Shown here one piece after another: positions 14,516-56,239 of a DNA stretch of 64,000 bases. The DNA comes from Candidatus Saccharimonadota bacterium (GTDB lineage Bacteria > Patescibacteriota > Saccharimonadia > Saccharimonadales > Saccharimonadaceae). Positions within the stretch are counted from its first letter, which is position 1; each line of letters starts with the position of its first letter. Below the pieces are notes generated by a model. The model made no database searches. It was not told the origin of the DNA and was given only the letters and a program-made list of their open reading frames with translations. Location of the stretch: assembly GCA_017512095.1 (NCBI GenBank), contig JAFWHC010000003.1, positions 62,001 to 126,000 of the forward strand. The letters are read 5' to 3'. Made by a program: the position numbers and the translations under genes.

Positions 14516-14851
14516 TTAGAGCAAAATCTTCACTTCCGTTCCGAACCCCACTCGCGACCGTACGCGGATGTTATCAAACTCACTACTCATCTCCGCCACC
14601 GTGGCCGGCGAAAGCGCCACCCCGTCATCGCGTACAATAACCGCATCTTTGGCAACAGAAAGAGAAACTTCTTTCTCCGCGCGACCAATCGCTCCATCAA
14701 CGAACAGATCGAGCGGCTTCCGAACGACTGATGGACGGTCAATCCTCCTCGTCACATCCGGAAAATCAAGGTTAAACCGCACGCCCCGCTTTTCCGCCTT
14801 TAAAAAATACTTTTGATACAATTCCTCAATAATCTTAGATAATCTATACAT
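14516..14851 (-). CDS. Minimal histidine-kinase-like ATPase domain protein
   Basis: A 111-aa protein that looks like a stand-alone, shortened GHKL ATPase (HATPase_c) domain. Visible pieces are a helical N-terminus, a strand and VIVRDDGVALSP, equivalent to the D-x-G-x-G G1 box, and RVGFGTEVKILL, equivalent to the G2 and final strand. The N-box Asn is not obvious and no DHp/His helix is present. It could be a degenerate sensor, an anti-sigma-like or serine-kinase relative, or a remnant. ATG lies 6 nt after TGtTATAAT, predicting leaderless translation. No response regulator is nearby. Convergent with the sortase gene, 12 nt apart. Confidence 0.5.
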   Translation of the reverse strand: MYRLSKIIEELYQKYFLKAEKRGVRFNLDFPDVTRRIDRPSVVRKPLDLFVDGAIGRAEKEVSLSVAKDAVIVRDDGVALSPATVAEMSSEFDNIRVRSRVGFGTEVKILL

Positions 14852-14857
14852 AAGCTT

Positions 14858-14866
14858 ATTATAACA
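14858..14866 (-). promoter_or_regulatory. Extended -10 of the HATPase gene
   Basis: TGtTATAAT on the minus strand, 6 nt before the ATG at 14851. This region lies just before the end of the YgjP-type gene. Confidence 0.6.
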
Positions 14867-14872
14867 CAGAAG

Positions 14873-15418
14873 CTACACGCCCGGACTAAACATTTTTAGC
14901 CGGCGTCGATGGTCTTTATAGCGTGAATCATGTTCGCCCACCTCCGCCCAAAAGGCCTCCGAATGGTCCATGTGGTTAAGATGTGCCAACTCGTGCAAAA
15001 TCACATAATCGCGCAAAACTTCCGGCACGTTCATCAGGCCAATATTTAGAGAAATAGTCCTCGTCGAAGAACACGATCCCCAACGCGTATTCGCATGCGT
15101 CAATCGGCATTTCGCATAGGTATAGCCATATCGCTTCGCCCAATATTCAAGTCGATATGGCAAATACTCCCGCGCTTTCTTCATTAGAATCTTTTTCTTT
15201 GCATCTCTTGCCCGCTGCGTCGCAGGGTCAGAAAGTGGCAGCTTCTCCCGAATCACCTCGCGGTTCCGATTCAGAAACCGCTTCACTAAAAAATCCGACG
15301 TATGCTGCGGCACCGACATCGACAACCGTCCGCTCGTCGAAACAGAAAACTTTACCCCCGTCGACAACGGATTCTTCCGCACGATCACTTCGCCAAATTC
15401 ATCATCTTTAATTATCAT
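14873..15418 (-). CDS. YgjP/DUF45-type zinc metallopeptidase
   Basis: A 181-aa protein of the YgjP-like (DUF45/WLM-related) family. The strong signature is RWGSCSS (about residue 110), ISLNIGLMNVPEVLRDYVILHELAHL with the HELAH zinc motif (about residues 141-145), and a downstream HSEAFW that supplies the third ligand. No signal peptide, so it is probably cytoplasmic. The family is widespread, and some members are linked to type I restriction or DNA-repair settings, but none is here. The physiological substrate is unknown. Confidence 0.85.
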   Translation of the reverse strand: MIIKDDEFGEVIVRKNPLSTGVKFSVSTSGRLSMSVPQHTSDFLVKRFLNRNREVIREKLPLSDPATQRARDAKKKILMKKAREYLPYRLEYWAKRYGYTYAKCRLTHANTRWGSCSSTRTISLNIGLMNVPEVLRDYVILHELAHLNHMDHSEAFWAEVGEHDSRYKDHRRRLKMFSPGV

Positions 15419-15485
15419 CTATTCCTTCCGACAAACAATGCCGGTCGCCCGGCATTATTTGCGCAACCTGAACATGAACTGTTGT

Positions 15486-15968
15486 CTATGCTAATTGTGT
15501 AAGCACGTGCCGAAGCTGGGTCTCAAAAGTGTGCTTACCAGACAGGACAATCGGAGCCTCGACTTCGCTTGGAGCCTCCATTCGCCCAATCCTTGTTTCA
15601 TATTCTTGCTTAGCCTTAACGGCGCTGCGATTTTTCAACTTCAAACGCTGGCGAATCGTGTTTACGTCCGTCTGAATCCAGACAAGTGACGGATTGTAGC
15701 CGGAACGACGGAGAATATTCCGCACCTCCGTCCGCTCGCGCTCTGTGTCAAGAATCCCCTCAATTACGAGCGTCACATTAGTCTTTGCAAGCTGCTCCAA
15801 AAGGAACAGAATCGTCTTTCGATCTAATTTATTTTCTCTTTCCAGTTCGCCGAGATCGAAGAAAGCAGCGTGAAACTTTTTTGCAAACCGCTCCGAGAAC
15901 GTCGTCTTGCCGCTTCCGGGGGCTCCGAAAACCAATATCGCTCTGGGCTGTGTTTTATTACCTTCCAT
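15486..15968 (-). CDS. P-loop kinase-like ATPase
   Basis: A 160-aa small P-loop protein. Walker A is GAPGSGKTT (about residues 15-23). A Walker B-like strand is LVIEG (about residues 67-71), and a lid-like region follows with RQRLKLKNRSAVKAKQEYETR. This resembles the AAA_33/zeta-toxin-like kinase group that phosphorylates small substrates. It has no obvious partner; an antitoxin gene is not seen next to it. The start ATG lies 9 nt after a TGgTAAAAT promoter, with AGAGG between. Confidence 0.65.
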   Translation of the reverse strand: MEGNKTQPRAILVFGAPGSGKTTFSERFAKKFHAAFFDLGELERENKLDRKTILFLLEQLAKTNVTLVIEGILDTERERTEVRNILRRSGYNPSLVWIQTDVNTIRQRLKLKNRSAVKAKQEYETRIGRMEAPSEVEAPIVLSGKHTFETQLRHVLTQLA

Positions 15969-15977
15969 ATTGCCTCT

Positions 15978-15986
15978 ATTTTACCA
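15978..15986 (-). promoter_or_regulatory. Extended -10 of the P-loop kinase gene
   Basis: TGgTAAAAT on the minus strand, 9 nt before the ATG. Confidence 0.55.
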
Positions 15987-16010
15987 CACTTTTCAAAAAT
16001 ACAATACCTT

Positions 16011-17741
16011 TTAGAACAAATAATTCAAATAATCTCGGAGCATTCTCGCCCCAGAAACAACTGGGAGAAAAGCCGCAAGTTGTTTCTTCTGCCAAAATTC
16101 GAGATCAAAATCATTTTCCCACGCCGCCGCCGCTTCTTCCATCCGTTCGTAAAGTCGTGCGACCTCCTCATCCTCAGAAGCGCCAGACACATTCAAATAC
16201 GCATCCGACGGACCATCCGCCACCCCACCATCATGTGTCGAGATTAAAAGACAAAGATTCGCAATATCTTTCTCCCAGCTTGTTCCGCAAGCCTCAAGCC
16301 CCACAATCGGCACATTAATCGAAACATTCGAACCGACCGAGAGCGCCCGCGCGAGCTCTTCATCGTAGTCCGCAATATAATGTACATGCGTCCGCAAAAA
16401 CTCATCAGATTTTATCTTGTCTAGAACCTCATTTAGCCGCGCCATCATTCTGTCGTCACCCTGATGCACGCGTCCAGTTAAGATATAGTGTGCCTTATGA
16501 TTCTCTAAAATTCGTTTTAATTTCACCGTATCCGTAAACGGCAACCACGGCCGTTTATAATCAACAAATCTTCGCTTAAAATCAAACACAATCTCATCAT
16601 CATTAAACTTCAGAACCGTTCCATTTTGGTCCGGACGCCGAGCAAGCACACGATTCATAAACGCCCGCCCTTGCGACTTTAGCGCCCGAATTTGCGTCGC
16701 GTCAACTTTATCAACCGCCGTCTCAAAATCCGCCGTCGGCAGCGTAAACTTGTCCAATATCCCGTTCTCTTTATAATATTTCACCGTCGCCGGCAGCACC
16801 CAATAGGGAATGTCAATCCCATTTGTCACTGCCTTAAACTTCACCTTTTCGCCCGATAAATCATGATAATTCGCCACTCGCGCATGAAGTTTCGACACGC
16901 CACTCTTGAGCTCCGCAATCTCAATCGTCACAGAAGAAAGTCGAATCCGTCCGTTCTCAAACTTGTCCGACAGCCATTTTTTCACAGCCTTGCTCTTCAG
17001 ATTCGTAAAGACATAGCGCTCAAACTGGTCATAAGAAAACGAAGCTTCTGCCGCCTGCACGAGCGTATGATTCGTATATAAAGTGTGCTTGCGCGTATAA
17101 ACTACCGCCTCATAAAAATCCATCCCGTTCGAAGCCAGCTCATCGAGCCGCGCGAGCGCCGCAAAAAACGTCGCCACTTCATTAAGCTGCATAATCGCGG
17201 GCTTTAGCCCAGCAAGCTTCAAAGCTTGATAGCCACCAAACCCGAGCGCAACCTCCTGATACAACCGATGGTCACCGCAAGAATCGCCAGAATAAAGTTC
17301 GCCAAAATTCGGCTCCGTAATCGCCAAAATTCGCGTCGATCCAAATTCCTTCTCAATCACCTCAAGTTTCACCAAATCTTTATTACAGCGAATATTGACT
17401 GTGTCTAAAAGCTCAAAGCCAAAATCATGATAGTCGACACGTCTAGAAACATCAAAACTTCGCCCATTTTCAAACTTTTGATGCAGCTCGGAAGGATAAA
17501 AAGGCGTAATAAGCGTGAGCGGCGCATTCATTTGCTCTGCAACTCTGCGCGTATCGGCAGCGAGAATCCCAAGCCCACCGCCCCCGCGAATCCCATTCGC
17601 TTGATCATAAAGCTCAATTGTCCAATAGGTGTACGGTCGATCCTCCGACAACGCCTTCGTCAAATGCTCGCGCTGAATCGCAGCGTAGAACTCCTCAACA
17701 TCTTCAATGGTTTCTAATCTATGCCTCGTTTTTAAAATCAT
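16011..17741 (-). CDS. Compact alpha-glucan phosphorylase (GT35-like)
   Basis: A 576-aa protein related to glycogen/maltodextrin phosphorylase, much shorter than the usual 800 or more residues. Recognisable pieces, in order, are GGGGLGILAADTRRVAEQM, LYSGDSCGDHRLYQEVALGFGG, QLNEVATFF (phosphorylase MNEGHSAF region), TLYTNHTLVQAA, RRFVDYKRP, and EACGTSWEKDIANL. The last aligns with EASGTSGMKAALNG, keeping the Lys that carries PLP. It would release glucose-1-phosphate from glucan. This fits with the GT4 and GH57 genes at 1.5-4 kb as a small storage-glucan pathway. The ATG is 6 nt after TGcTAAAAT. The acceptor specificity and whether all PLP contacts are intact remain open. Confidence 0.75.
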   Translation of the reverse strand: MILKTRHRLETIEDVEEFYAAIQREHLTKALSEDRPYTYWTIELYDQANGIRGGGGLGILAADTRRVAEQMNAPLTLITPFYPSELHQKFENGRSFDVSRRVDYHDFGFELLDTVNIRCNKDLVKLEVIEKEFGSTRILAITEPNFGELYSGDSCGDHRLYQEVALGFGGYQALKLAGLKPAIMQLNEVATFFAALARLDELASNGMDFYEAVVYTRKHTLYTNHTLVQAAEASFSYDQFERYVFTNLKSKAVKKWLSDKFENGRIRLSSVTIEIAELKSGVSKLHARVANYHDLSGEKVKFKAVTNGIDIPYWVLPATVKYYKENGILDKFTLPTADFETAVDKVDATQIRALKSQGRAFMNRVLARRPDQNGTVLKFNDDEIVFDFKRRFVDYKRPWLPFTDTVKLKRILENHKAHYILTGRVHQGDDRMMARLNEVLDKIKSDEFLRTHVHYIADYDEELARALSVGSNVSINVPIVGLEACGTSWEKDIANLCLLISTHDGGVADGPSDAYLNVSGASEDEEVARLYERMEEAAAAWENDFDLEFWQKKQLAAFLPVVSGARMLRDYLNYLF

Positions 17742-31266: not shown

Positions 31267-31776
31267 ATGCATCTGGAGGTTAATAATAATTCTTCTGCTG
31301 GTGTTGGTCATAATCCGCAAGCAGGACAACAAAGAAAAATCTCTTTTTTGCGACTTTTTTCTGTCATTATAATCGTCGCCAGTTTAATTGCCGCGCTAGT
31401 AATCTTTTTGATTGTCCCGCTCATTAGCCGCGCCCAAAAAGAAGCCGCATATAGACAGGGGATCGCGGCGCAGATCGACGAAGAGCTTATGTCTATAAGG
31501 TTAGATGATATGATAAAGCTCCATTATGAAGTCGGCAACTATGACTCCGTCAGGCCATACATCGAAGAAACTTCTAACCTCTATTCGGATGGTTACGCTA
31601 AACTTGAAGCTCTCTCTGAGGTAAACGTCATCTTTCATGAATCTAACGACTGGTCTTCTCTTCGACAATTCTATGAATACATGCTAGGTATCGCTAAAGA
31701 ATATAAGCTCGACGAAGAAACGACCGAATTGTTTCGCAATCTGGTCCAGGAGGCAAAAAAGAATGAGCAAAAATAA
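31267..31776 (+). CDS. Bitopic membrane protein with TPR-like helices, partner of the 1628-aa surface protein
   Basis: A 169-aa protein. It has a Gln/Asn-rich N-terminus, a strong membrane helix (about residues 35-56: VIIIVASLIAALVIFLIVPL), a charged linker and a helical C-terminal region with repeat-like spacing (YEVGNYDSVRPYIEE, FHESNDWSSLRQFYEYM). The gene overlaps the start of the giant surface-protein gene by 14 nt, so the two are co-translated. It is one of four such proteins in the window (1031, 31267, 50917, 51586). It is likely to be a membrane partner for display or export of the surface protein; no catalytic motif is seen. Confidence 0.7.
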   Translation: MHLEVNNNSSAGVGHNPQAGQQRKISFLRLFSVIIIVASLIAALVIFLIVPLISRAQKEAAYRQGIAAQIDEELMSIRLDDMIKLHYEVGNYDSVRPYIEETSNLYSDGYAKLEALSEVNVIFHESNDWSSLRQFYEYMLGIAKEYKLDEETTELFRNLVQEAKKNEQK

Positions 31777-34700
31777 TATCAAAAGAATATTAATTTGCAG
31801 TCTCCTGGGTTTTTCTCTATTAGTTGCCCTCAAGCCCACCAATGCGCACGCTGGCCTGGTTGCCGGCGGCGGCGGCTCAAACCCTGGTGGAGGTGGTGCC
31901 AACGAAGGTTCTTGCGGCGGCAGCACGGGCATCGTCTGCCCAATGACACTTTGGGTTTATTATACTATTAACGACCGCTCCAGACCTGCCTATATTGGTT
32001 CGCACGCTCCATACGCTAGTTCAATTACAATTTCCGATTGCGGCCCCTACGGCGGCTTCTGGATTTATCAGCGTACTGCCAATGAAGCTGGCGATAAAGG
32101 CACTGCAAAATATCGCGTGGCTTCCGGCGCGCGCCAACGCAGTTCCTGGCTCAATGGCAATGCAACTTCAAGCACCATGATCCCACTAAAAGGCGTATGG
32201 AATGATGAGAACAGCAATGTTACTCCACAAATTCCAGGTTATCCTGACTGTGCCTCTAATAAGACGTGTGGGAAAGACGGCAGTTGGCCAGTTTCGGACG
32301 CCACCGTCCAAGGTTATTTTAGGGAGAATAATGGTGGCTCTACATATTGTACTATCGGCAGCTATAGCGGCGATTGCTTCGGCAGTAACAGCCCACTCAC
32401 TTATTTCTGCTACGGCGACGACCCGGAGCGGGAATTTACTCACAGCCTCTCGTATAACAAAAACACTACTGACTCCGTCTCTGGCATGCCTAGTGGCACT
32501 AGTTGCTCTTGTACAACTACAAATAGCAGTTGTTCTTGTAATGTTACTGTTTCAAGCAATACTCCGACGCGCGCAAATTATGCTTTTGCTGGTTGGAATA
32601 CCAGATCTGACGGCAGCGGCACGAACAAATCCGCAGGCAACTGGAGTATTAGCAACGATAAAACCCTATATGCAAAATGGCAACAATACACCCATACTCT
32701 CAAATACGATGCGTGCGCCGGATCTAAGCCTTCCGGAAAATTAGGCAACAATACTGTTAGCGACGGTAGCACGAGCCACACCTTCACCATAAGTAGCGAC
32801 AGACCGACTCCACCCACCGGCTATAAGTTCATTGGCTGGTCTACTGTTTCTTGCGATGGAGCAAAAAATAAAAATCCAGGCGACACGATTTCCGTCGGCA
32901 ACGAAACCAAAACCCTCTACGCCAAATACCAAGCCTACACTATCGCCACCTTCACGGCTCCAGAAATCACTATCACCTCATCTGAGCTTTCCAACATTTC
33001 TGGCAACAACTGGAAAGGCCTCGGTAACAAAACCAGTTACGCCGTCACGGCCACCTACCACGTCAAACGCACTAACGATACTCCCGCCAGCGCCACCTCG
33101 AACTATGGCACCCGTGGTGCCGCCTCAGATGATAATGTTTATCCGTCAAACGGGACCGCGAGCAACGCCTTAACCAATACTCAGCAACAAGACATTCCTA
33201 CATCATATACTGTAGCCGTCGATAACGGCTCCACTGCCGCCGCCTGCTTCTACTTTAAATACGACAGCAAAGTATATTATGACGGTACCACTCGCGTCGG
33301 CAGCGCAGAAACTTCCACCACTAAGAAATGCATCAGCGTCTATAACCCCGCGAAAAACAACGCTTCCTTCACTGGCTCCGTTAGTATTTCCAATGGCGAT
33401 GGGCTATCCGGTACCAGCACTTCTCGCACAGGCAGTGGCTACAAGTCCACTTTCACTGTCACGCCAAGCTACGCCATCACTCGCACCGACGGCCTCACGA
33501 CTCCGACCACCGCTTCCTCCGACTACGCCATAAACGCCACTTCTGCCGCCTATAACGCAAATAGCTATCCTGCCGACACGGCTACTAAAGCTAATACCGG
33601 CGCTCTCGGCATCGCCGCAACCGACAAGACCAAGTCTTGGTCTGGCTCCGCTTCGACCGTCAACATCGACATTGGCAGCTCCGCCCAGAACCGTTGCTTC
33701 TACCTCCGTTACGACACCTCAGTCCTTTACTACGACAATGACCGATACTCCGGCAACTTCGCTGGTAAGACCTATGATTGCGTTTCTATCACCAACCCCG
33801 CTAATACCACTTCCATCTCCTTTACGGGGAACACCACAAACGGCACCATCACCGCAAATGACCGCGTCATCAGGAGCGACAGCAACCGTGTCGGCACCCT
33901 CAATAACCACGACCGCACCACGACCGGCAACGACGACGTAGTTGGCGAATGGGTTGACAATACGACCGTCATCAATGGCACCTACACGGCAGATTTCTCC
34001 CATAGTATTACACGAAGCGACGCCTCAGCGACCATCCTCGGCAAGACTATGAACGCTTCCGTATCTTGGAAGGTTCAAGAAATCTTCCCGGCTACCGCTC
34101 CATCTTGGAACGCCTCGGCAGGCACTTGGACTGTCCCAACGACCAGTACCGCTAACTGGACCGATTACGCCACTTCCCGTGATAATAAGTCCAGTAGTGT
34201 TTCCGGCACAGCCAGTCTTGGCGCCTCTGGCTCAACCACCATCACTACCCAGCCTAAGCTCACCGCCACTCACGGACAAATCCGCTACTACTGTCAGCGC
34301 CTTCTTTACACGCCAACCACCAACTATACGACCTATACGATTGACGATAGAAACGACTATGGCGTCAAAATCAGCTCCTATGCTACCGCCACTGCGACCA
34401 GCCCACTTTGCGTCACCCTCAAGAACCCGGTCTGGTCAGAAACCGACAGCACTATCCTGCCGCACCTCATCGATGTCACTCCAACCATAGGAAACACCGA
34501 ATACGCTGCTAACACCTTCAGCCAATCCGGCAACGCCCACGAAACTCTCGTCGTCAACCCAACTATCTACGTCCACCATAGCGTTTCTCGCAGTGACAAC
34601 AAGAACGCTCCGGAAAGCTACGACGAATCCGACGCAAACTACAACGGCAACGTCCTGTTCGGCAGCGGCGCCAACAAGAAGTTTTGGCAAAGTTCGATTT

Positions 34701-36649
34701 ATAGCCAAACTGCCTGCACCAGCAAATACTGGGGCACCAACAGTTCCAACCAGAACGCCCGGGCTATCGACGGCAAGTGTAAGGTTATCACTAATCTTTC
34801 CGGCTACGAACGAATCGTTGGTTTCGATGCTTCCGCCGCCCTTGTTCCGGTCATGGGTGGGCGTTCAACCGATGGCGCTCTCGCCATCCAGCTTGGCGCA
34901 ACCAGCAAAACTGCCGGCGACACTTGGAACTCAACCAAGACCAGCGGCGCTTCCCGCCTCAACTTCAACGCCACCGGACTCAACAAATACTCCATTATGG
35001 CCGGACAAACTCGAGAGTTTACCATCCACTCTTCGGTTCGCCACACCCGCTGGACATATAATTACAAGAAGATTAATCTCCATGAATATTACACCAAGAA
35101 TGGCACCGTAACCGAGCGCATTGCTGGCGCCACTACTTTTGACCGCATAGAAAAAGTCCAGAGCACTACATCGAGTCCAAACCCAGCTCCCGCCACCAAC
35201 CCCGCTCATCTCGAATCCAGTCCGGTTACGTTCTCCGTCACCCGACCTTATAACTTCAAAATTACTGACGCTGCCTATTCCAGCGATGCTTCAGGTTCTG
35301 GCGGCTATATCACCTATGATGATGACAACTTGCAGGTCAACTTTACCATTAATATCGGCAAAGAAAACAACACCCACGCCTACATCACCGATCCAAACCA
35401 CACCACAAACTCTCGCTATGTTTACCCTGTCACTTATGTCATTCCAGCCTCTACAAGTGCAAGTACCATCAACGGCAACGCCTCCGGCGTCCATAGCGGC
35501 GTCGAGAGCGATATCTGTGCGCACTTTAACGGAATCGCAAAGGCTGGCAGCTGCTCGCTCCACACCGAATCTGCTCAGCCAAATAAGCTCAGCGCCGTCG
35601 CTGGTGCTACGACCTTCAATCCGAACAGCACCCCCACTGGTGCCGTGGTCGATACCATCTTCCGCCACGTCTACGATGCAACTAGTTACACGTTAAGCTA
35701 CCGCACCGGCACCATCAAGGTCCAGAACGCCGACGGTTCACCACTCGGTGCTGGCGAGAAGTTCTGCGTCGCTATCGCAATCAAGAACTACAGCTCCGCT
35801 TCTAACGCCTACTTCGTGTCCTCTTCCACCTGTCGCAACGTCAGTAAGCGTCCTTCCTTCCAAGCTTGGGGCGGCTCAGTCATTACGGACGGTGGTATCG
35901 ACACTTCCGAATCAACCTACGCAAACAAACGCTTTGGCTCTTGGGCCGACTTCGCCATCACCGCCAACAAGGAAGTCAAGCGCATGAACTCTGGTGCTTC
36001 GACCATCAGCGGCATCGCCACCAGCAGCTCCATCTGCAATCGCAGTCCGCTTACCATCGCCAACCAAAACTGCGACAGATCGGAAAAGACGCTCGGCTAC
36101 GCCAGTATCGACGCAAGAGGTAGCTTTATAGAAAAAGTTCTCAGCTACTTCACGAGCAACGCCACCCTAAACGACTTATCTTCAAGATCAGACGGTAAAG
36201 GCACCGTCCCAAACAGAACCTACATTATTCGCAACGAAAACAGCGACTTCACCATCGACACCAACATCTACAATGACTACGCTGACTCTCAAATCATCAT
36301 CATTGCGAAAAACATCAACATCAAGTCGAACGTTACCCGCGTCGACGCCTTGCTCATCGCTACCGGCGTAAACAACGCTGGCGGAACTATCGACACCTGC
36401 TCCAACATCGCCGATAGTGCGCTTTCCGCCAGGAACTGCACAAACATGCTAAAGGTCAACGGACAGCTCGTCGCCGGCAATATCAAGTTCAAACGCACTA
36501 GCGGTGGCGACCCAGCCACAAACAGCCTCACGAATCCCGCAGAGCTCACGAACTATGCCCCTTCAACCATCATCTGGGGAGGTCACAAGTCTATGTCCGA
36601 AGCCAACCCACGAACCGTCTTCGTCCATAAGATTCCCACCAGATTCTAA
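31763..36649 (+). CDS. Giant secreted surface protein (1628 aa) with InlB repeats and a shared C-terminal domain
   Basis: Signal peptide about residues 1-30 (hydrophobic ILICSLLGFSLLVAL, cleavage near AHA), then a Gly-rich linker. Two InlB B-type repeats lie around residues 225-390 (FAGWNTRSDGSG...LYAKW and FIGWSTV...LYAKY). From about 390 to 1340 run several ~120-130-residue beta-rich units. Each tends to carry a TRTD/SRSD-type motif and a CFYxxYDS or CQRLLY strand, ending in CV(S/T)I.NP. A C-terminal domain of about 267 residues (from FQAWGG) is shared with the 1317-aa protein at 52286. There is no LPxTG motif or C-terminal membrane helix. AGGAGG precedes the ATG within the upstream gene. 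Adhesin or structural-filament roles are inferred. Confidence 0.8.
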   Translation: MSKNNIKRILICSLLGFSLLVALKPTNAHAGLVAGGGGSNPGGGGANEGSCGGSTGIVCPMTLWVYYTINDRSRPAYIGSHAPYASSITISDCGPYGGFWIYQRTANEAGDKGTAKYRVASGARQRSSWLNGNATSSTMIPLKGVWNDENSNVTPQIPGYPDCASNKTCGKDGSWPVSDATVQGYFRENNGGSTYCTIGSYSGDCFGSNSPLTYFCYGDDPEREFTHSLSYNKNTTDSVSGMPSGTSCSCTTTNSSCSCNVTVSSNTPTRANYAFAGWNTRSDGSGTNKSAGNWSISNDKTLYAKWQQYTHTLKYDACAGSKPSGKLGNNTVSDGSTSHTFTISSDRPTPPTGYKFIGWSTVSCDGAKNKNPGDTISVGNETKTLYAKYQAYTIATFTAPEITITSSELSNISGNNWKGLGNKTSYAVTATYHVKRTNDTPASATSNYGTRGAASDDNVYPSNGTASNALTNTQQQDIPTSYTVAVDNGSTAAACFYFKYDSKVYYDGTTRVGSAETSTTKKCISVYNPAKNNASFTGSVSISNGDGLSGTSTSRTGSGYKSTFTVTPSYAITRTDGLTTPTTASSDYAINATSAAYNANSYPADTATKANTGALGIAATDKTKSWSGSASTVNIDIGSSAQNRCFYLRYDTSVLYYDNDRYSGNFAGKTYDCVSITNPANTTSISFTGNTTNGTITANDRVIRSDSNRVGTLNNHDRTTTGNDDVVGEWVDNTTVINGTYTADFSHSITRSDASATILGKTMNASVSWKVQEIFPATAPSWNASAGTWTVPTTSTANWTDYATSRDNKSSSVSGTASLGASGSTTITTQPKLTATHGQIRYYCQRLLYTPTTNYTTYTIDDRNDYGVKISSYATATATSPLCVTLKNPVWSETDSTILPHLIDVTPTIGNTEYAANTFSQSGNAHETLVVNPTIYVHHSVSRSDNKNAPESYDESDANYNGNVLFGSGANKKFWQSSIYSQTACTSKYWGTNSSNQNARAIDGKCKVITNLSGYERIVGFDASAALVPVMGGRSTDGALAIQLGATSKTAGDTWNSTKTSGASRLNFNATGLNKYSIMAGQTREFTIHSSVRHTRWTYNYKKINLHEYYTKNGTVTERIAGATTFDRIEKVQSTTSSPNPAPATNPAHLESSPVTFSVTRPYNFKITDAAYSSDASGSGGYITYDDDNLQVNFTINIGKENNTHAYITDPNHTTNSRYVYPVTYVIPASTSASTINGNASGVHSGVESDICAHFNGIAKAGSCSLHTESAQPNKLSAVAGATTFNPNSTPTGAVVDTIFRHVYDATSYTLSYRTGTIKVQNADGSPLGAGEKFCVAIAIKNYSSASNAYFVSSSTCRNVSKRPSFQAWGGSVITDGGIDTSESTYANKRFGSWADFAITANKEVKRMNSGASTISGIATSSSICNRSPLTIANQNCDRSEKTLGYASIDARGSFIEKVLSYFTSNATLNDLSSRSDGKGTVPNRTYIIRNENSDFTIDTNIYNDYADSQIIIIAKNINIKSNVTRVDALLIATGVNNAGGTIDTCSNIADSALSARNCTNMLKVNGQLVAGNIKFKRTSGGDPATNSLTNPAELTNYAPSTIIWGGHKSMSEANPRTVFVHKIPTRF

Positions 36650-45249: not shown

Positions 45250-46716
45250 ATGAAAAGATTCTTTCTCTCCTTGCTTTTGTCACTAAGCTTAATTTTTACG
45301 CCCTTTGCGCAACCAGTCGCAGCATCCGACCGCCTCGTCCAAATCGGCTCTGGCGAAACCGCAATTTTTCTCACTCCTGACGCGCCCTATTATCAAAATC
45401 ATCAAGCAGCAGAAAGCAGCGACATTTCGACAGACGATTCGTGTACGGCATACTTCGATTTTTCGGATTGGTGGTTCCCGAGCTTATACCTTAAAAACTA
45501 TCAAGACGACGCCATCTACGTTCGCGGCGGTTCCTTCCAGTCGGTCCACGTCAAACTCAGTGGCGAGAACCAAATCACCACGACGGGAGAGTATGGCATT
45601 AATGTCAGCGTAAACTATTTCTACATCGAAAACAGTCATCCAGAATTGTCGCCCGCCAGTCTCACGATTAACGTAAATTCGTCGACCACACGCGCCAACG
45701 CCATCATCAATGAGGCTGGCGACGTTAGTCTGGAGGAAAAAACCGATGCCACATTTAACGTTAATTCGACGCTCCCGGCAGAAAATAATAGCACCGACGA
45801 AGTCACCGGCATCACCACACCTGCCGACAAAAACGTCACCATATACATGAATGATAACCTAATCATTAACAATCCAACCGGCAGCTTCGGGATTTATACT
45901 GGGCATTTCTACGCCGTCCAGGCACAAATTGGCGGCGAGAACTACGGCTACCGACCATTCGCCACCATCACGCACAAGATTAACGACGGCTTCGGCAACG
46001 CCTTTTTAAACAACGACTTTGAAGATAGCACACTCGCCAGCGATCCAAAAATCATCGCCACGCAACCAGAATATACTTTTCGACACGACAAAACCGCCAC
46101 TCTCGGCACGTTTAAGCTTCTGCCCGCCGTCCGCGGTTTTTCTGCAAACTATGACGACACGCTCGAAGACGGCGAAAATTTTGATTCCGCCGAGGCTCGC
46201 ATTATTAGCTCCCTCGTTAAGGAGCTTCATCCTGAAACTATCACCGACCTCGCTTGTCTCTCGGAACTTGAAGGACTCTGTCCGTACAACCCCAACCTTT
46301 TCGAAATCGACAAAACCAAAACCGAGCTTGTTATTGCTAAAGACGTACACTCTGGCACATACCGCAACAACAGCGAAGCGACAATCTCCGCTGAAGAAAA
46401 CTATGCGCTAAAAATCCACTTCCGCGTTGCCGACCCAAAGAACTATGCCTTTTCCAAAATTGACACCGTCGCGCCCATGTCGGCCGGCATTCTTAACGGC
46501 CTCGAAACCGCTAATTATCATATTGACGGCCCCGCCCGCGTTTATCTTTCACCCGAAGAAATCTACATCCTCGCCCCGCTCACTGTCCGTTCTGCATTCG
46601 CAGTTACATCTGAACCAGAGCCAGAAGAAAAGACAGAAGAACAAGTAACAGAAATCATACAAGACACGGATAAAACCATTATTCCTAAAGCCCCAAACAC
46701 CGGCGTTGTGTTATAA
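45250..46716 (+). CDS. Secreted protein with a C-terminal PNTG-like motif
   Basis: A 488-aa protein. A signal peptide (about residues 1-25, cleavage near PVAA) is followed by a beta-rich region with repeated short strands (IYVRGGSFQSVHVKLSGENQITT type), then domains that resemble no known family. The C-terminus is a Glu/Thr-rich stretch (PEPEEKTEEQ) followed by PKAPNTGVVL and the stop. PKAPNTG resembles a sortase-type sorting motif, but the membrane helix and basic tail that normally follow are missing. The protein is therefore either truncated or not sortase-processed. The stop codon lies in the -10 of tdk. Its role at the surface is unknown. Confidence 0.7.
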   Translation: MKRFFLSLLLSLSLIFTPFAQPVAASDRLVQIGSGETAIFLTPDAPYYQNHQAAESSDISTDDSCTAYFDFSDWWFPSLYLKNYQDDAIYVRGGSFQSVHVKLSGENQITTTGEYGINVSVNYFYIENSHPELSPASLTINVNSSTTRANAIINEAGDVSLEEKTDATFNVNSTLPAENNSTDEVTGITTPADKNVTIYMNDNLIINNPTGSFGIYTGHFYAVQAQIGGENYGYRPFATITHKINDGFGNAFLNNDFEDSTLASDPKIIATQPEYTFRHDKTATLGTFKLLPAVRGFSANYDDTLEDGENFDSAEARIISSLVKELHPETITDLACLSELEGLCPYNPNLFEIDKTKTELVIAKDVHSGTYRNNSEATISAEENYALKIHFRVADPKNYAFSKIDTVAPMSAGILNGLETANYHIDGPARVYLSPEEIYILAPLTVRSAFAVTSEPEPEEKTEEQVTEIIQDTDKTIIPKAPNTGVVL

Positions 46717-49579: not shown

Positions 49580-49588
49580 TGATAAAAT
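49580..49588 (+). promoter_or_regulatory. Extended -10 of tig
   Basis: TGaTAAAAT, 7 nt before the ATG at 49596. The earlier in-frame ATG (49587) overlaps the -10, so it is unlikely to be transcribed. Confidence 0.6.
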
Positions 49589-49595
49589 GGGGGAC

Positions 49596-50873
49596 ATGAA
49601 AGTTAAATCAAAGAAATTATCCGACACCCGTGTTCTTATCACGGTCACCTTAGACAAAAACGACTTAAACACCGCTCGCGAAAAAGCCGTCGAGCGACTC
49701 ATCAAAGAAGTAAAAATCGAAGGCTTCCGCAAAGGCAAAGCCCCGCGCGACCTTGCCGAAAAAGTTCTCGACAGGAACGTCGTCTCGCAAGAAACAATCG
49801 ACATTGCCGTTCGCACAACCGTGCCGACCGCTTTCCAGGAAGTTGAAAAATCCCCACTCGTCGTTCCGCGCGTCAACGTCACAAAATACGTTCCTGACGA
49901 ATCCGCCGAATATACCGCCGAAGCCGACATTCTGCCCGAAGTTAAACTTGGCGACTTTAAAAACCTCAAAGTTAAAAAACCTGAGGTCAAAGTCACTAAA
50001 AAGGACATCGACGAAATCGTCGAGAACATCCAGAAAGCCTACGCTGAAAAGAAGGTCATGAAGAAAAAAGCCGAGCTTGGCGACGAAGTTATTATTGATT
50101 TTGTCGGCAAACGCGACGGTGAACCTTTCCAAGGCGGCACTGCAAAAGATTATCATCTCGAACTCGGCTCAAAGAGTTTCATTCCTGGCTTTGAGGAGGG
50201 AATTGTCGGGCACGAGTCTGGTGACAAATTCGAGCTTCCGCTCACTTTCCCGAAAGATTATCACGAGAAATCTCTTGCTGGCGCTAAGACCGTTTTCGAA
50301 GTTCTCGTTAAACAAGTCAACGTTTTCGAACTCCCGAAACTCAATGAAGAACTCGCAAAGAAATGCGGGCCCTTCAAGAACATGGACGAACTTCGTGCCG
50401 ACATCGAAAAGAACCTAAAGCTACAAAACGAAGCCCGCATCAACGAAAAGTTCAAGGACGACCTCGTCGAAGCGCTCGTTAAAAACTCCAAGGTTTCTGC
50501 GCCGGAAATCCTCATTGAAGACCAACTTCGCATCATCAGAAACGACATCGAACGCAACGTTGCTGCCGCCGGAAAAAGTCTTGACGAATATCTCAAGTTA
50601 AACAACGTCACCAAAGAAGAGTGGGAAAAACAGGCCCGCGAAGTTGCCGAAAAGCGCGTTAAGGCTTCGCTTGTTCTGCAAATCCTCGCCCGCGACGCCA
50701 AAATCGAGGTTTCCGACGATGATGTTATTGCCAAAATCGCCGAACTTCGCGACGTTTACCAAAAATCTCCCGAAGCACTCAAGAATCTCAAAGACCCACG
50801 CGTCAAAATGGACGTCAAGAACCGCATGGTTATTGAAAAAACGCTCAACTTCCTCGTTGAAGCCAACAGTTAA
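49596..50873 (+). CDS. tig: Trigger factor
   Basis: A 425-aa ribosome-associated chaperone and peptidyl-prolyl isomerase. The N-terminal ribosome-binding domain includes GFRKGKAPRD (the GFRxGKxP signature). The FKBP domain (about residues 155-240) has GDEVIIDFVGKRDGEPFQGG and FIPGFEEGIVGH, and a long helical substrate-binding domain follows. It folds nascent chains emerging from the ribosome. The ATG at 49596 is used because the earlier ATG overlaps the promoter. Confidence 0.95.
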   Translation: MKVKSKKLSDTRVLITVTLDKNDLNTAREKAVERLIKEVKIEGFRKGKAPRDLAEKVLDRNVVSQETIDIAVRTTVPTAFQEVEKSPLVVPRVNVTKYVPDESAEYTAEADILPEVKLGDFKNLKVKKPEVKVTKKDIDEIVENIQKAYAEKKVMKKKAELGDEVIIDFVGKRDGEPFQGGTAKDYHLELGSKSFIPGFEEGIVGHESGDKFELPLTFPKDYHEKSLAGAKTVFEVLVKQVNVFELPKLNEELAKKCGPFKNMDELRADIEKNLKLQNEARINEKFKDDLVEALVKNSKVSAPEILIEDQLRIIRNDIERNVAAAGKSLDEYLKLNNVTKEEWEKQAREVAEKRVKASLVLQILARDAKIEVSDDDVIAKIAELRDVYQKSPEALKNLKDPRVKMDVKNRMVIEKTLNFLVEANS

Positions 50874-50916
50874 ACCTTTACCATTTTCCAAAAACCATAT
50901 ATAATATATATTATAT

Positions 50917-51519
50917 ATGCACGAGCAAAATTCTTTTTCTAATTTAAACACGCCCGATCGCGGCGAAGCAATAATCTCCAGCAGCGCGGAGCAAAAATCA
51001 ATTCCCGCTGCCGGAAACAATTTTGGCGCCATTGCCCCGAGCCAACCGCCCAAAGACAAAAAACCTCTCGACCTTAAAGTTATCTTTATCGCCATCGCCG
51101 CCGCCTTAGTCGGTGCTGGCATTGCAGTCGCCGTTGTTCTAATCGTCAATAACCTCAATAATCGAGAAGAAGGAGAAACCACGGAAATTACCTACTCCTC
51201 TCCCGACAACGACGGCACCAAACAGAACGAAGAAGTTATTGCCGAATACGACAAAAAAATCGCCGAAACCAGCGATAAAGAAGTTGAACTCGGGCTCACA
51301 CTCAACAAGGCTGGCTATTATAATCTTATCGAGGACTACGACTCCGCCATATCAGTCCTACAAGGAATCGACGTCTCAAGTTTAGACAACTTTGACCAAT
51401 ATCGCGTCTATAATTACTTCTCGACTGCCTACGAAGGCAAAGGCAACTCGGCCGAAGCTAGCCGCTATCACCAACTCGCGGAAGAAGCTAACGCTCGCGA
51501 TTTCCAAGTTACAGAATAA
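50917..51519 (+). CDS. Bitopic membrane protein with TPR-like C-terminus
   Basis: A 200-aa protein. It has a polar N-terminus, a membrane helix (about residues 53-75), a charged linker and a TPR-like end (AGYYNLIEDYDSAISVLQGI, YNYFSTAYEGKGNSAEASRYHQLAEEA). It shares the layout of the small membrane proteins at 1031, 31267 and 51586, with the closest repeat resemblance to the 1031 protein. It is the only one without an adjacent surface-protein gene of its own, unless it belongs to the module beginning at 51586. A -10 TATAAT ends 11 nt before the ATG. A strong terminator follows. Confidence 0.7.
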   Translation: MHEQNSFSNLNTPDRGEAIISSSAEQKSIPAAGNNFGAIAPSQPPKDKKPLDLKVIFIAIAAALVGAGIAVAVVLIVNNLNNREEGETTEITYSSPDNDGTKQNEEVIAEYDKKIAETSDKEVELGLTLNKAGYYNLIEDYDSAISVLQGIDVSSLDNFDQYRVYNYFSTAYEGKGNSAEASRYHQLAEEANARDFQVTE

Positions 51520-51527
51520 GGACAAAG

Positions 51528-51561
51528 AAATCCCGTAAAATCATCATTTACGGGATTTTTT
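51528..51561 (+). terminator. Terminator of the 200-aa membrane-protein gene
   Basis: Perfect 12-bp stem AAATCCCGTAAA/TTTACGGGATTT with a 7-nt loop and a T-run. Confidence 0.92.
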
Positions 51562-51566
51562 GTGCG

Positions 51567-51575
51567 TGATATAAT
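51567..51575 (+). promoter_or_regulatory. Extended -10 promoter of surface-protein module 3
   Basis: TGaTATAAT, 10 nt before the ATG at 51586. Confidence 0.6.
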
Positions 51576-51585
51576 TATAAGCAGT

Positions 51586-52293
51586 ATGGAAGGTGATACA
51601 AAAAAGGGTAATCTTGAGTCGCCGGTTAAAAAACCGCTTGTTTTTCATAGCCAGAATATCGCCGACACGAAGGCTAAGGAAAAACGCGAAGTCTTCACAA
51701 AAGTTGAAGAAAAAAAGACTTTTAAACAAAGCGCTGAGGAGTTCCAAAAAAAGTTCGCCGAGGCCAAAGCTCACGCTGCCGAATCTCGCGCGCGAATCGA
51801 GAATCCAGGCGCCGACGCAAATGGTGTTATTCGCTCGCACAAACGTTTCAATATCAACTGGAAACTCGTCCGCCGTATCACCATTCCGGTCATCATCGTC
51901 GCCGGCCTTGCTGCTGCAGTGTATTTTAACTGGGGCGCTATTCACCATGAGTTTTTCGAAGTCTCCGAATCCCGCGCCCAGGAATTCTTGCCCGACAATC
52001 CTGAACGGTTTATCGCCATGTATGACAAAATCATTGACGAAGCAGAAACAGAAGACTCAAAAATCGAGCTTCTCTTCAATCGCGTCGCCATTCTTGACTC
52101 AACATACGGTAGTCAGTTTTCTAAACAAATTTTAAACGACTCCTACAGAGCATATGAAATCTTACCTTGCTACGAGACCGCCCTGCAAATCATTGAAAAA
52201 GAAGAAAAATATGGCACGACAGAAAAAGCATCCGAATGGAGCGCAAAGCTCGAAACTTTAGAAAGGGAAGGATTGATTCTCGGCAATGGATAG
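51586..52293 (+). CDS. Bitopic membrane protein, partner of the 1317-aa surface protein
   Basis: A 235-aa protein. It has a longer, charged cytoplasmic N-terminus (about 95 residues, Lys/Glu-rich), a membrane helix (about residues 100-122: ITIPVIIVAGLAAAVYF) and a helical extracytoplasmic part with TPR-like character (FIAMYDKIIDEAETEDSKIELLFNRVAIL). The ATG at 51586 is preferred to an upstream in-frame GTG. It overlaps the giant surface-protein gene by 8 nt (ATGGATAG), so it is translated together with it. Role: probable membrane partner, function unknown. Confidence 0.7.
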   Translation: MEGDTKKGNLESPVKKPLVFHSQNIADTKAKEKREVFTKVEEKKTFKQSAEEFQKKFAEAKAHAAESRARIENPGADANGVIRSHKRFNINWKLVRRITIPVIIVAGLAAAVYFNWGAIHHEFFEVSESRAQEFLPDNPERFIAMYDKIIDEAETEDSKIELLFNRVAILDSTYGSQFSKQILNDSYRAYEILPCYETALQIIEKEEKYGTTEKASEWSAKLETLEREGLILGNG

Positions 52294-55200
52294 GCATAGA
52301 ATACTATTATTTACATTCGGCATTATTGCATCGGCGTTAGTTCTAAATACACAAAACGTCTTCGCTGATTATAAAAGCGACTGTAAAAGCGCCGCAGCTG
52401 CGAAATATGGCAACAGGTACACCGTCCATCAGGCAACCTTTGACTCAAGATGCGAGAGTCAGGGCGGAAACGGCAATTATGGCACCGCAGTCCCAGAGTA
52501 TACCGATTATCCTGAGTGGACAAGGCTCTCAGGTAGCAATCTTAGTTTTAGCATCCGTCGCGTTACTTATTCAATTGGCTCCAATAGTTATAATACAGGA
52601 GACAACCTAAGCGGTTGCATAGAAAACAATGTCCCCAACGCAACGATTAGCGGCAGTCCAATGGAACTAATGACTATCAAACCTGGCACGAGAAGAACCT
52701 GGATCGGAACCGGCACTTATCATGTCGGAATGTCAGCGTCAGCAGTTAAGGGCGGGTGGTCAAACTGGGACGACGGCGGCACAGCCACAGTAAGTTTTGA
52801 TCCAGGCGCCGCTAGTGCCGCTGCTAGAGTGAACTCGGAAGGACTTGTCGAAAATTCCTTCAACATCACGACTCACCTGTATTGTTATGACAACAAAAGC
52901 AATGACAACACAATCTATTACAAATACTACAAAATAACCGAAATACAACATAGCAGCACCCCCTCCGTAGCTTACAAGGGAACCACGGTTGGAAGCACAA
53001 GCAGCGGCGCCCCAATCACTGTGGAGGACGGTAAGCTTACCTTTACCCACGCGCTAAAAAGGAACGATGGCTGGACCAATCCATCATCCGCAAACTTATC
53101 CAATCTTTATAAAAGAAAAATCACCGTCAGCGGAACGGCGGTACGGCAAGATTCAAATTGGCAATCAAAATCACTAGCCTCAGGAGGAACCTTCGCGAAC
53201 GTTACTGACGAAATCGATACGTCATCGCTAAACCTGCAACCAAATGTCGCTACAGAAGTCTGCTCGACTCTCACTCACCGCAAAGTCAAAGGTCTCCATG
53301 GGCATACCGCCTATGCCGATAGCGAGACAAACGTCGACACAAGCACCGTCTGCGTCTGGGTCAAAGACGATCGTATCTTCCTCACGCCGAACTCCCGCTC
53401 TTCTGTCGACAACAGCATCAACGGCAACAAAAGCGCCACCACCGGCAACACAGAAACCCTCGATGCCTACGGCGGCTCCCGCGGGGCAACCAAAACTTTC
53501 ACATTCAGCTTTGTTCACCAACTCAAAGTCTCCGGTAGCTCAAGCTACTCCAGAGCAATCGACTATTACGTCGAGCGCAGCGTCAACGGCGGTTCGTCTT
53601 GGTCTGCTGTAGCCAACGAGGGCACAAGCGGTTCGCCCAAATCACTCACGGTCAACGGCGACAACACCTATGTCACCGCAGAAACCAACACCTGGGTCTC
53701 TGACCCCATTGCTCAAGGTTCAGCCACGCCAACCGTCTGCGAGCGCATTACTTTCCGACCTAAACAAGTTGAGGTAAAAGTTAGCACCGGCGTTCAAACC
53801 GTCACCGACAACAACTGGCAGACTTCCACCGTCTGTTCTATCGTCCGACGTCGTTCGCCAAAATCAGTCAACCTTACTGCTGAATCCCATGTCTGGGTCG
53901 ACGGCGCAAACAAAGATGCTGCCTCACCAGTTTATAGTGTGAATAGTCCTCGCTCTATCCAGTTTAAGTTTGACATCAAAAACGCTGACGGTAGCAATCG
54001 TGCACTATCAACCAATTACGTCATCGAACGCATTGTCTACGCCGCCGGCGGCTCCGAAGACTGGTCACAAAAGACCGACGTCAAATCCGGCAACAATATC
54101 GCTACGCCAACCTCAAGCCCCATCACCGAGACCTTCAACATTACTATCGACCCCGGCACTTCCAAGACCATCTGCGAACGCATCAAGCTTAATCCTTATC
54201 AGTTCAAAATCCATCTCGATGGCAACAATAATGAAGAAGGTTCGCCGGAATCCGTTGTTGGCGATGGCTGGTTTGCCAAACGTTGTGTTACGATCGCTCG
54301 CCCCGCTCTCACTTGGCGCGACGACGGCGACATCGAAGTCTTCTCCGAGTCCTCCGGCGCTCTCGACAATCCTTCCCAAACTGGCGGCACGGTCAACATC
54401 AGTGGCACCACCGCCTATCTCCTCAAAACCGCTTCCGCCGACATCACCTACACGCACAAGCTTTGGCGCAATGCAGAAAAGCACACTGGCGACGGCACCC
54501 ATCAAGCAGATGTCATTAGCCCCGACGAAGATGTTACCGTCGAATACCGTTTTGCCGACCCAGCTACTACCTTCACCGCCACGTCTATCAAAAGCGCCGT
54601 CACCCTGCCATCTCACGCTATCGCCACCAACACCGCCAGCAGTAAATATTCTTTCCGAAGCAACCGCACTGACCCACTTCTCAACACCAACACTCAGGCT
54701 ACCGCCAGCGAAGTCGGCACGCTCTATGAACAGTGTCAAACTATCGACTATCTCTCAAAAACATACACGCTTCAAGGCCGTTATTGGGAAGTTGACGGAG
54801 AAATCTATAGCGGCAACCCCGACATCCAGGGCGTCGGCACGCCTGCCAGCAAAAACACTGTTGGCAAATCTGCGAGGGGCTGCGTCAACGTCATCCGTCC
54901 CTGGAACTTTAAAGCTACCGGCCTAACCTCAAACGACGATATTAGTAAGCCCGTCACCGTCGGCTCCAGCCAACGCATCAAGTTCGACCTTTCCGTCGGC
55001 AAAAACGATGCTAGCTACATGATTACCGACATTCCAAACGCCACCATCCGTTTTGTCGCTTTCACTGCCTTTGGCGAGGTCGCTTCACTCAATTTCAGCG
55101 GCAGTCTCGACACTGCAAACGACCCCTGCAGCCATTTTGCTAGTCAAATTGCCGGTATTAACTGTAACACACTTGAGGAACGCATTAACCAAAACCTCGG

Positions 55201-56239
55201 CCCCGCCGGCGCCACCGGTAAAAAGTTCTATTCGTCAAATAACTATGACGTTACCATCCAGTCCAACAACTTCACCATCCCTGACCTCGCCACCAACGAT
55301 AAGTATTGTCTCGCCGTCGGCGTTAAACCCGCAAACAGCGGCGATGGGTTCAACATGAGCAGCAACTGGGTCGTTTCCAGCGCTTCCTGCTTCAACATCG
55401 GTAAATATCCAAACTTCCAAGCTTGGGGCGGCGGCATCTTTACAAACGGCGGCACTAAGACCTCTCGCACGACCATCGAGAACAAATCTTATGGCTCATG
55501 GACCGACTTCGCTATCATCGCGAACAAATCCGTCCTAGAAACCGGCTCCGGCGCTTCACTCATCTCCGGTCTAGAAAGCCACACCGATTGCAAGCTATCT
55601 CCGCTCACTATCGCAAATGACAACTGCAGCGGCGTCAACACCTCTCGCCCTGCCCTTGGTGGCGCGAGCATCAGCGTTGCGACGGCCAACTTCAAGCAAA
55701 AGCTCGCCGACCATTATCTCAACGACGTCCAAAACTACACCGTCACATCAGAAATCAACACCGAATCCCTAAACGGCACTGCCAGAAACCCCCGCTTCTT
55801 CTATAATCCCGACGGCGACATCTATATCAGCGCCAACATCATGCCATCAAGCTACACTACCCGCAGCTATGGCAATCCCAACATTCCTCAGGTTATCGTC
55901 TACGCCAAAAACGGCAACATCCTCATTAACGAGAACGTCAATAACATCCAAGCCTGGCTCATCGCCGACAAGCAAATCAACACTTGCGTCAACAGTAGCA
56001 AGGTAACCCCGCCCTTAAGCGCCAGCACTTGTAAAGAGCCACTTGTTATTGGCGGACCAGTCGTCGCGGAAAAAGTCCTCATGAACCGCACCTATGGCGC
56101 CGACGCCCACACAAACACCTTGCCAAATTACGCTGAACTCGTCAACCTCTCTGGCGCCGTTTATCTCTTCTCGGCCAACGAAGCCTCCGGCGCCCAGCCC
56201 GTCACGACCTACCTCCAGAAGCTCCCGCCAAGGTACTAG
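52286..56239 (+). CDS. Giant secreted surface protein (1317 aa) with shared C-terminal domain
   Basis: A signal peptide (about residues 1-28, cleavage near FADY) is followed by a Cys-containing N-terminal region. Repeated beta-rich units of about 110-120 residues follow (about residues 230-900). Several end in VCERI.F.P or ICERIKLNP, a GW/NW strand, and CVTIARP-like Cys-x-Ile-x-Arg-Pro. The last ~277 residues (from FQAWGGGIF) align with the end of the 1628-aa protein: GSWTDFAI, GASLISGL, LTIANDNC, IVYAKNGNILI, INTCV, PLVIGGPVVAE, RTYGAD and a final PPRY. There is no LPxTG motif or C-terminal helix. It starts by overlap with the membrane partner gene. Function is unknown; surface display is inferred. 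Confidence 0.8.
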   Translation: MDRHRILLFTFGIIASALVLNTQNVFADYKSDCKSAAAAKYGNRYTVHQATFDSRCESQGGNGNYGTAVPEYTDYPEWTRLSGSNLSFSIRRVTYSIGSNSYNTGDNLSGCIENNVPNATISGSPMELMTIKPGTRRTWIGTGTYHVGMSASAVKGGWSNWDDGGTATVSFDPGAASAAARVNSEGLVENSFNITTHLYCYDNKSNDNTIYYKYYKITEIQHSSTPSVAYKGTTVGSTSSGAPITVEDGKLTFTHALKRNDGWTNPSSANLSNLYKRKITVSGTAVRQDSNWQSKSLASGGTFANVTDEIDTSSLNLQPNVATEVCSTLTHRKVKGLHGHTAYADSETNVDTSTVCVWVKDDRIFLTPNSRSSVDNSINGNKSATTGNTETLDAYGGSRGATKTFTFSFVHQLKVSGSSSYSRAIDYYVERSVNGGSSWSAVANEGTSGSPKSLTVNGDNTYVTAETNTWVSDPIAQGSATPTVCERITFRPKQVEVKVSTGVQTVTDNNWQTSTVCSIVRRRSPKSVNLTAESHVWVDGANKDAASPVYSVNSPRSIQFKFDIKNADGSNRALSTNYVIERIVYAAGGSEDWSQKTDVKSGNNIATPTSSPITETFNITIDPGTSKTICERIKLNPYQFKIHLDGNNNEEGSPESVVGDGWFAKRCVTIARPALTWRDDGDIEVFSESSGALDNPSQTGGTVNISGTTAYLLKTASADITYTHKLWRNAEKHTGDGTHQADVISPDEDVTVEYRFADPATTFTATSIKSAVTLPSHAIATNTASSKYSFRSNRTDPLLNTNTQATASEVGTLYEQCQTIDYLSKTYTLQGRYWEVDGEIYSGNPDIQGVGTPASKNTVGKSARGCVNVIRPWNFKATGLTSNDDISKPVTVGSSQRIKFDLSVGKNDASYMITDIPNATIRFVAFTAFGEVASLNFSGSLDTANDPCSHFASQIAGINCNTLEERINQNLGPAGATGKKFYSSNNYDVTIQSNNFTIPDLATNDKYCLAVGVKPANSGDGFNMSSNWVVSSASCFNIGKYPNFQAWGGGIFTNGGTKTSRTTIENKSYGSWTDFAIIANKSVLETGSGASLISGLESHTDCKLSPLTIANDNCSGVNTSRPALGGASISVATANFKQKLADHYLNDVQNYTVTSEINTESLNGTARNPRFFYNPDGDIYISANIMPSSYTTRSYGNPNIPQVIVYAKNGNILINENVNNIQAWLIADKQINTCVNSSKVTPPLSASTCKEPLVIGGPVVAEKVLMNRTYGADAHTNTLPNYAELVNLSGAVYLFSANEASGAQPVTTYLQKLPPRY

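Follow-up and report, generated by a model that had tools for sequence, protein, structure and literature searches.

In Saccharibacteria, type IV pili serve both host attachment and twitching (PMC12206443). For Nanosynbacter lyticus TM7x, that paper describes two type IV pili that take part in these processes, and it proposes PilX2 as the adhesin. In S. epibionticum, most pilus genes proved essential in Tn-seq (PMC10633639). A large domain has been placed at the tip of a pilus in Thermus thermophilus: PMC6561018 argues that the beta-solenoid of ComZ, the tip pilin of the competence pilus (PDB 6qvi), can sit only at the pilus tip. PilY1/PilC of the type IVa pilus is a large secreted protein with a proposed role as tip adhesin.

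Here we describe two giant proteins, P0001 and P0002, encoded in one window of saccharibacterial DNA (the whole stretch analysed, 64,000 nucleotides, to which all window positions refer). They end in a common C-terminal domain, referred to below as the CTD, and share features with each of these systems. The CTD may be a large solenoid of the ice-binding type, as in ComZ, and relatives have it in a pilus context. However, ComZ is a pilin with an inserted solenoid (PMC6561018), whereas the CTD proteins lack a pilin helix, carry a long stalk and, by inspection, begin with a Sec-type signal; the likeness would be of fold only, on a weak model. PilY1/PilC is comparable in size, secretion and proposed role, but the CTD is modelled as a solenoid, not as a propeller. 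For the PilY1-type C-terminal domain, which we take to be the Neisseria_PilC family, no Pfam match was found up to E 1 in P0002 or its CTD, and P0001 matched List_Bact_rpt only. PilX1 and PilX2 are likewise candidate host-binding pilus parts with expanded C-terminal domains, but they are pilins with jelly-roll or beta-propeller ends (PMC12206443), whereas the CTD proteins are encoded by separate genes. DUF3494 (PF11999) resembles the CTD in predicted overall fold and differs in showing no sequence or profile similarity and in its setting. Unlike sortase-anchored proteins, P0001 and P0002 end in the CTD itself (IPTRF and LPPRY, respectively), without anchor features.

With a probability of about 0.55, we consider that the CTD is a conserved module of secreted, type IV pilus-associated surface proteins found throughout Patescibacteria, of which the window copies would be pilus or free adhesins.

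Extent and architecture of the two proteins

The features of the window are as follows (all on the + strand).

31267 to 31776, +: partner gene overlapping the start of P0001; 169 aa, single transmembrane (TM) segment and helical part
31763 to 36649, +: full gene of P0001; 1628 aa, with signal sequence, List_Bact_rpt repeats, long middle part, shared module and CTD
35237 to 35836, +: shared module before the CTD of P0001, residues 1159-1358 (BLASTP; matched by the P0002-module profile at 1162-1362)
35837 to 36646, +: CTD of P0001, residues 1359-1628, 270 aa (BLASTP, profile A1, AlphaFold model)
36632 to 36646, +: C-terminal end of P0001, IPTRF, the equivalent of LPPRY in P0002
49587 to 50873, +: trigger factor gene (tig), upstream of the P0002 cluster; Pfam Trigger_N 4e-32, present in relatives
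50917 to 51519, +: second TM and helical protein, 200 aa; a homologue separates tig from the CTD gene in L065, L066, L067 and L075
51562 to 52293, +: partner gene overlapping the start of P0002; 243 aa, single TM, then a helical part (TPR-like by eye)
52286 to 56239, +: full gene of P0002; 1317 aa, with signal sequence, four stalk repeats, Ig-like module and CTD
54890 to 55405, +: shared module before the CTD of P0002, residues 869-1040, probably an Ig-like beta-sandwich (BLASTP, shuffles, VIA-align)
55406 to 56236, +: CTD of P0002, residues 1041-1317, 277 aa (BLASTP, shuffle test, profile A1)
56222 to 56236, +: conserved C-terminal end of P0002, LPPRY (Y or F is the last residue in 37 of 45 members)

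In BLASTP, residues 1159-1628 of P0001 align with residues 869-1317 of P0002 at 32% identity (E 2e-48). The CTD pair (the last 271 and 277 residues) scored 396, against a mean of 40.5 and a maximum of 84 in 1000 shuffles, which rules out chance or composition bias as the source of the likeness. A preliminary description of this DNA had proposed a common C-terminal domain from FQAWGG to the last residue; both figures bear this out, and the motifs it named align as it stated. Its start for the domain, position 55407, is one base out of frame, as the codon of residue 1041 begins at 55406. The same description held that the upstream regions differ. This is true of the parts before the shared module, which are no more alike than chance allows (122 vs a maximum of 128 in 200 shuffles), but not of the ~170-200 residues immediately preceding the CTD (107 vs a maximum of 68 in 1000 shuffles). 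Since homology reaches back to residue 1159 of P0001 and residue 869 of P0002, the region first described is real but too short at its upstream end.

The module before the CTD is probably an Ig-like beta-sandwich: its low-confidence model matched an Ig-like fold in VIA-align with Z 7.8 over 107 residues at 2.8 A, where a Z below 8 may reflect no more than a common arrangement. A profile of this module matched 37 of 83 collected proteins. Preceding it, P0002 has a stalk of four related repeats (residues 250-332, 402-521, 544-685 and 756-872), and P0001 has List_Bact_rpt (PF09479, E 5.4e-11) in two stretches, its sole Pfam match. A common N-terminal domain was sought among the 83 proteins with residues 46-230 of P0001 as the seed, which matched only itself. 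Well-covered members of the family are 616 to 1886 aa long (a 563-aa protein in L171, the start of which looks broken off, is excluded).

Both window proteins begin with a signal sequence that is Sec-type by inspection, and neither has a Pfam match to N_methyl, the type III signal and pilin helix. At their C-termini, where the CTD extends to the last residue, no sortase-anchor feature (LPXTG, TM stretch or basic tail) is present; the initial view that a common CTD stands in place of a sorting signal is upheld by these observations.

Among the 45 better-covered members, G1125, T1233, C1234, L1253, R1268 and E1284 (P0002 numbering) are invariant, and R1316 is conserved in 44. Three conserved cysteines had been noted earlier. 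C1234, within INTC, is indeed present in 45/45, and C1035 in 43/45, the latter just N-terminal to the domain; three further cysteines are kept in only 33, 30 and 28 of the 45. The end of the protein, noted earlier simply as hydrophobic, is under tighter constraint than that: the last residue is Y or F in 37 of the 45, mostly in the form L-A/P/S-P-R-Y/F. Distant members outside the order often have other tails, e.g., PPPG... or WREV-like ends, so the LxPRY end belongs to the wider family of the window proteins and not to the whole phylum.

Range of the family and predicted fold

The CTD is a real, uncatalogued protein domain spread across Patescibacteria, which are very small, parasitic bacteria. 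In its own genome (625 kb, 92% complete) there are only two copies, P0001 and P0002. The single P0002 domain as the query found matches in 34 of 60 genomes, its own included (31/36 in the genus and 3/24 in other families of the order). Profile A1, which consists of 29 rows, both window proteins among them, and was used at a threshold of E 0.001, matched 118 of the 379 genomes in a phylum-wide sample: 4/4 in the genus, 19/20 in other genera of the family (23/24 for the family in total), 5/8 in the order, 5/5 in the class and 85 genomes in the rest of the phylum. With its own genome searched, the P0002 CTD matched A1 at E 5.6e-89. In both window proteins the A1 match runs to or near the C-terminus, which is how membership of the CTD family was defined. 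These searches rule out a domain private to the two proteins, and relatives beyond them, the lack of which would have counted against the preliminary description, are found across the phylum. The named relatives are Candidatus Saccharibacteria MAGs, with 9 of 11 loci from ruminant gut samples.

A clear match to a known unrelated domain would have argued against the initial proposal; in Pfam, NCBIfam and the PDB sequence set no match to the CTD family was found, and the 29 members scanned singly gave isolated, scattered matches only (best E 0.0029). A literature search by title and abstract, mainly among open-access papers, found no description of the family. A phage origin was rejected on zero matches in 50,697 phage records, with no confirmed relative among viral contigs. 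A 25,343-aa open frame in one relative is an artefact of masked sequence.

For structure prediction, a 449-aa model and a model of the CTD alone were made with AlphaFold from an alignment of only 13 sequences, with mean pLDDT of 58.9 and 58.3, respectively. In the core of the CTD-alone model (residues 131-240), ten-residue pLDDT means were 56-87, mostly >=70. Foldseek, which had been suggested at the outset as a check, found no known fold at significance (best E 0.012 for the 449-aa model and 2.9 for the CTD alone). When 50 chains were re-aligned with VIA-align, ice-binding beta-solenoids ranked first (Z 7.4-8.3; FfIBP best, Z 8.3 over 153 residues at 3.5 A, on a low-confidence model), followed by the Thermus protein ComZ (Z 6.6, 175 residues aligned, 4.3 A, on a model with mean pLDDT ~58) and then by chains with Z <=2.4. 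PMC6561018 names the same ice-binding protein as the nearest fold to the ComZ solenoid. We therefore regard a beta-solenoid fold for the CTD as a moderately supported guess based on the models, and not as family membership.

This ranking could be taken further, to mean that the CTD belongs to the DUF3494 ice-binding domains and shares their function, for which the fold likeness at Z 8.3 on a low-confidence model is the argument. We consider this very improbable. No profile link was found between the CTD and the ice-binding proteins of the phylum (hhalign probability 0.1 for A4 and A1), by which sequence homology was rejected; PF11999 had no match at E 1 in the own genome; and ruminant gut is the source of most named relatives. 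Of 286 Patescibacteria genomes that were sampled, 27 contain true PF11999 proteins above cut-off (loci L189-L208).

Gene order in relatives

Gene context was compared at 81 distinct CTD loci from 71 genomes, with genes called by a simple script; L135, L137, L142 and L149, in which this caller gave no CTD protein, were left out of the 81. Most genus matches were included, and family and phylum matches were chosen roughly by E-value rank. The labels pilM, pilN, pilO, pilB, pilT, pilC and pilD were assigned with profiles for which L166 was the seed, and prepilins were labelled by a motif rule. In Pfam, the L166 operon matched PilM_2 (2.8e-39), T2SSE (1.7e-124 and 3.9e-50), T2SSF (2.5e-56), A24_N_bact (1.5e-22) and N_methyl (6.3e-6); its PilO-like protein matched T2SSM_b below the cut-off, and its PilN-like protein had no Pfam match.

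A core type IV pilus operon lies directly 3' of the CTD gene, on the same strand, at 22 of the 81 loci (genus 0/29, other genera of the family 7/13, beyond the family 15/39). At 13 further loci (genus 9, family 4, beyond the family 0; 35/81 in all) at least one prepilin is encoded within three genes 3' of the CTD gene. Neither window copy has either placement. The 13 loci with prepilins recall PilY1/PilC, the gene of which lies beside those of minor pilins; the family differs from it in that the CTD gene precedes pilM in other lineages. At most of the 22 core-operon loci the CTD gene comes first, ahead of pilM, and in three genomes outside the 81 loci (G177, G070 and G110) ~75-480 bases separate the end of the CTD match from a PilM match that follows it on that strand. 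No pilus cluster was recognised at 24/39 loci beyond the family. The context labels are strongly clustered on the CTD tree (5 changes vs a shuffled mean of 18.2). It is important to note that co-occurrence of the CTD and PilM at the genome level is uninformative, because PilM is nearly universal (above cut-off in 353/379 phylum genomes).

Just upstream of the CTD gene, 54 of the 81 loci have a gene for a single-TM protein of 80-430 aa; in L171, counted among the 54, this gene looks like the broken-off start of the CTD protein. As TPR models matched only 3 of 43 partner proteins, the label 'TPR' is largely given by eye. Judged by eye, the upstream partners in L118 (2974-3939) and L173 (3821-4729) resemble PrsA/SurA-type foldases and not TPR proteins; the L118 protein has no Pfam match at E 0.01.

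The position at the head of pilus operons is also what would be expected if the CTD protein were a pilus assembly or envelope-passage factor, i.e., a base or exit component and not an adhesin. Members of 616-634 aa with little stalk, found in full operons (L166, L167 and L168), agree with this. However, a core part of the machine should be more uniform in length than a family that reaches 1886 aa, several genomes have two copies, and the pilus operon of the own genome has no CTD gene; we therefore judge such a function improbable.

L157 and loci like it encode, 3' of the CTD gene, a PilX-like protein (by eye) of ~400-450 aa with an N-terminal hydrophobic segment. In L157 it occupies positions 14734-16095, downstream of the CTD gene and three prepilins, and this cluster may be equivalent to 'T4P locus three' of TM7x (PMC12206443). 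The 438-aa PilX-like protein as the query had no match in the own genome, in a search too weak to prove absence.

The window loci and a proposed role

P0002 is preceded by the trigger factor gene and genes for two TM proteins and followed by what are presumably ribosomal protein genes, rpsG included. The order at P0001 is two genes that we assume to be FemAB-like, a TM protein gene, P0001 and then ftsZ. A sister genome, G002, has CTD genes at both sites, tig/rpsG and ftsZ; in the tree, P0001 joins the ftsZ-side gene of G002 (SH-aLRT 99), and P0002 stands beside the rpsG-side gene with weaker support. The single pilus operon of the own genome (L178), which includes pilB and pilT but has no CTD gene, is not near either window copy, and prepilin genes are at scattered places, among them an 850-aa frame that ends inside the window. 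Because the window copies are away from pilus genes, a pilus role for P0001 and P0002 depends on homology only.

The window proteins may, alternatively, be wall adhesins independent of pili. In that case the target of the CTD would be the cell wall, an S-layer or the membrane partner encoded upstream, and pilus neighbours in other lineages would reflect no more than co-expression of surface proteins. That 20/29 genus loci have no adjoining prepilin or other pilus gene is consistent with this, as are the tig/rpsG and ftsZ neighbourhoods, which recur in the sister genome, and the upstream TM partner, present in 25/29 genus loci irrespective of pilin neighbours. Yet beyond the genus, 22 of 52 loci, in many families, lead straight into a pilus core operon, far above the chance expectation of one gene in several hundred, and on balance we find this explanation rather unlikely.

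In the preferred reading, a pilus-associated surface protein, the CTD protein would be exported by Sec, as its N-terminal signal sequence suggests. The small membrane-anchored partner encoded upstream would probably hold or fold it at the cell surface, judging from gene order. The CTD, probably a beta-solenoid, may dock the protein on the minor-pilin complex or the tip of the pilus, a place with room for a large domain, by analogy with ComZ and PilY1; the variable Ig-like stalk and N-terminal part would reach out and bind the host cell. What supports this scheme is the order of genes in relatives, together with the argument made for ComZ that a large solenoid fits only the pilus tip (PMC6561018). 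The CTD had initially been called a recognition or assembly domain. Its conservation, together with the variability of the parts before it, favours docking or assembly over recognition, as far as sequence comparison can indicate. In the lineage of the window, the gene appears to have been duplicated and now lies outside pilus clusters, at the tig/rpsG and ftsZ sites; the two copies may still serve the pilus as adhesins, expressed from another site, or may descend from pilus adhesins and act as free ones at the surface.

A bolder proposal, which we offer tentatively and at somewhat less than even odds, is that Patescibacteria share an unrecognised class of pilus tip adhesin, composed of signal, variable head, Ig stalk and solenoid CTD, with a membrane-anchored partner of its own. 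In some lineages the gene would have moved out of the pilus operon, duplicated and expanded into a set of giant host-recognition proteins, the CTD being the common plug that fits exchangeable heads to the pilus. As a marker, the CTD points in many genomes to a candidate adhesin gene, recurrent at the head of pilus operons; it gives deletion targets in manipulable strains and allows the variable parts to be compared with host range.

Several minor observations concern the surroundings of the two genes. The order trigger factor, single-TM protein, CTD giant (window 49587-52293) is conserved in L065, L066, L067 and L075, and a chaperone gene adjoining that of a giant secreted protein is suggestive. 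Positions 45250-46716 encode a secreted-looking protein of 488 aa, with only a weak DUF1996 match in Pfam, the end of which (APNTGVVL) is a sortase-like motif without a tail. Positions 56-1006, the first gene of the window, are the C-terminal end of an 850-aa frame that begins before the window and has a prepilin-type N-terminus (GDTLVEVMFAVGIFGLV), and two similar large GDTL(V/I)E proteins, 696 and 299 aa long, are encoded elsewhere in the genome.
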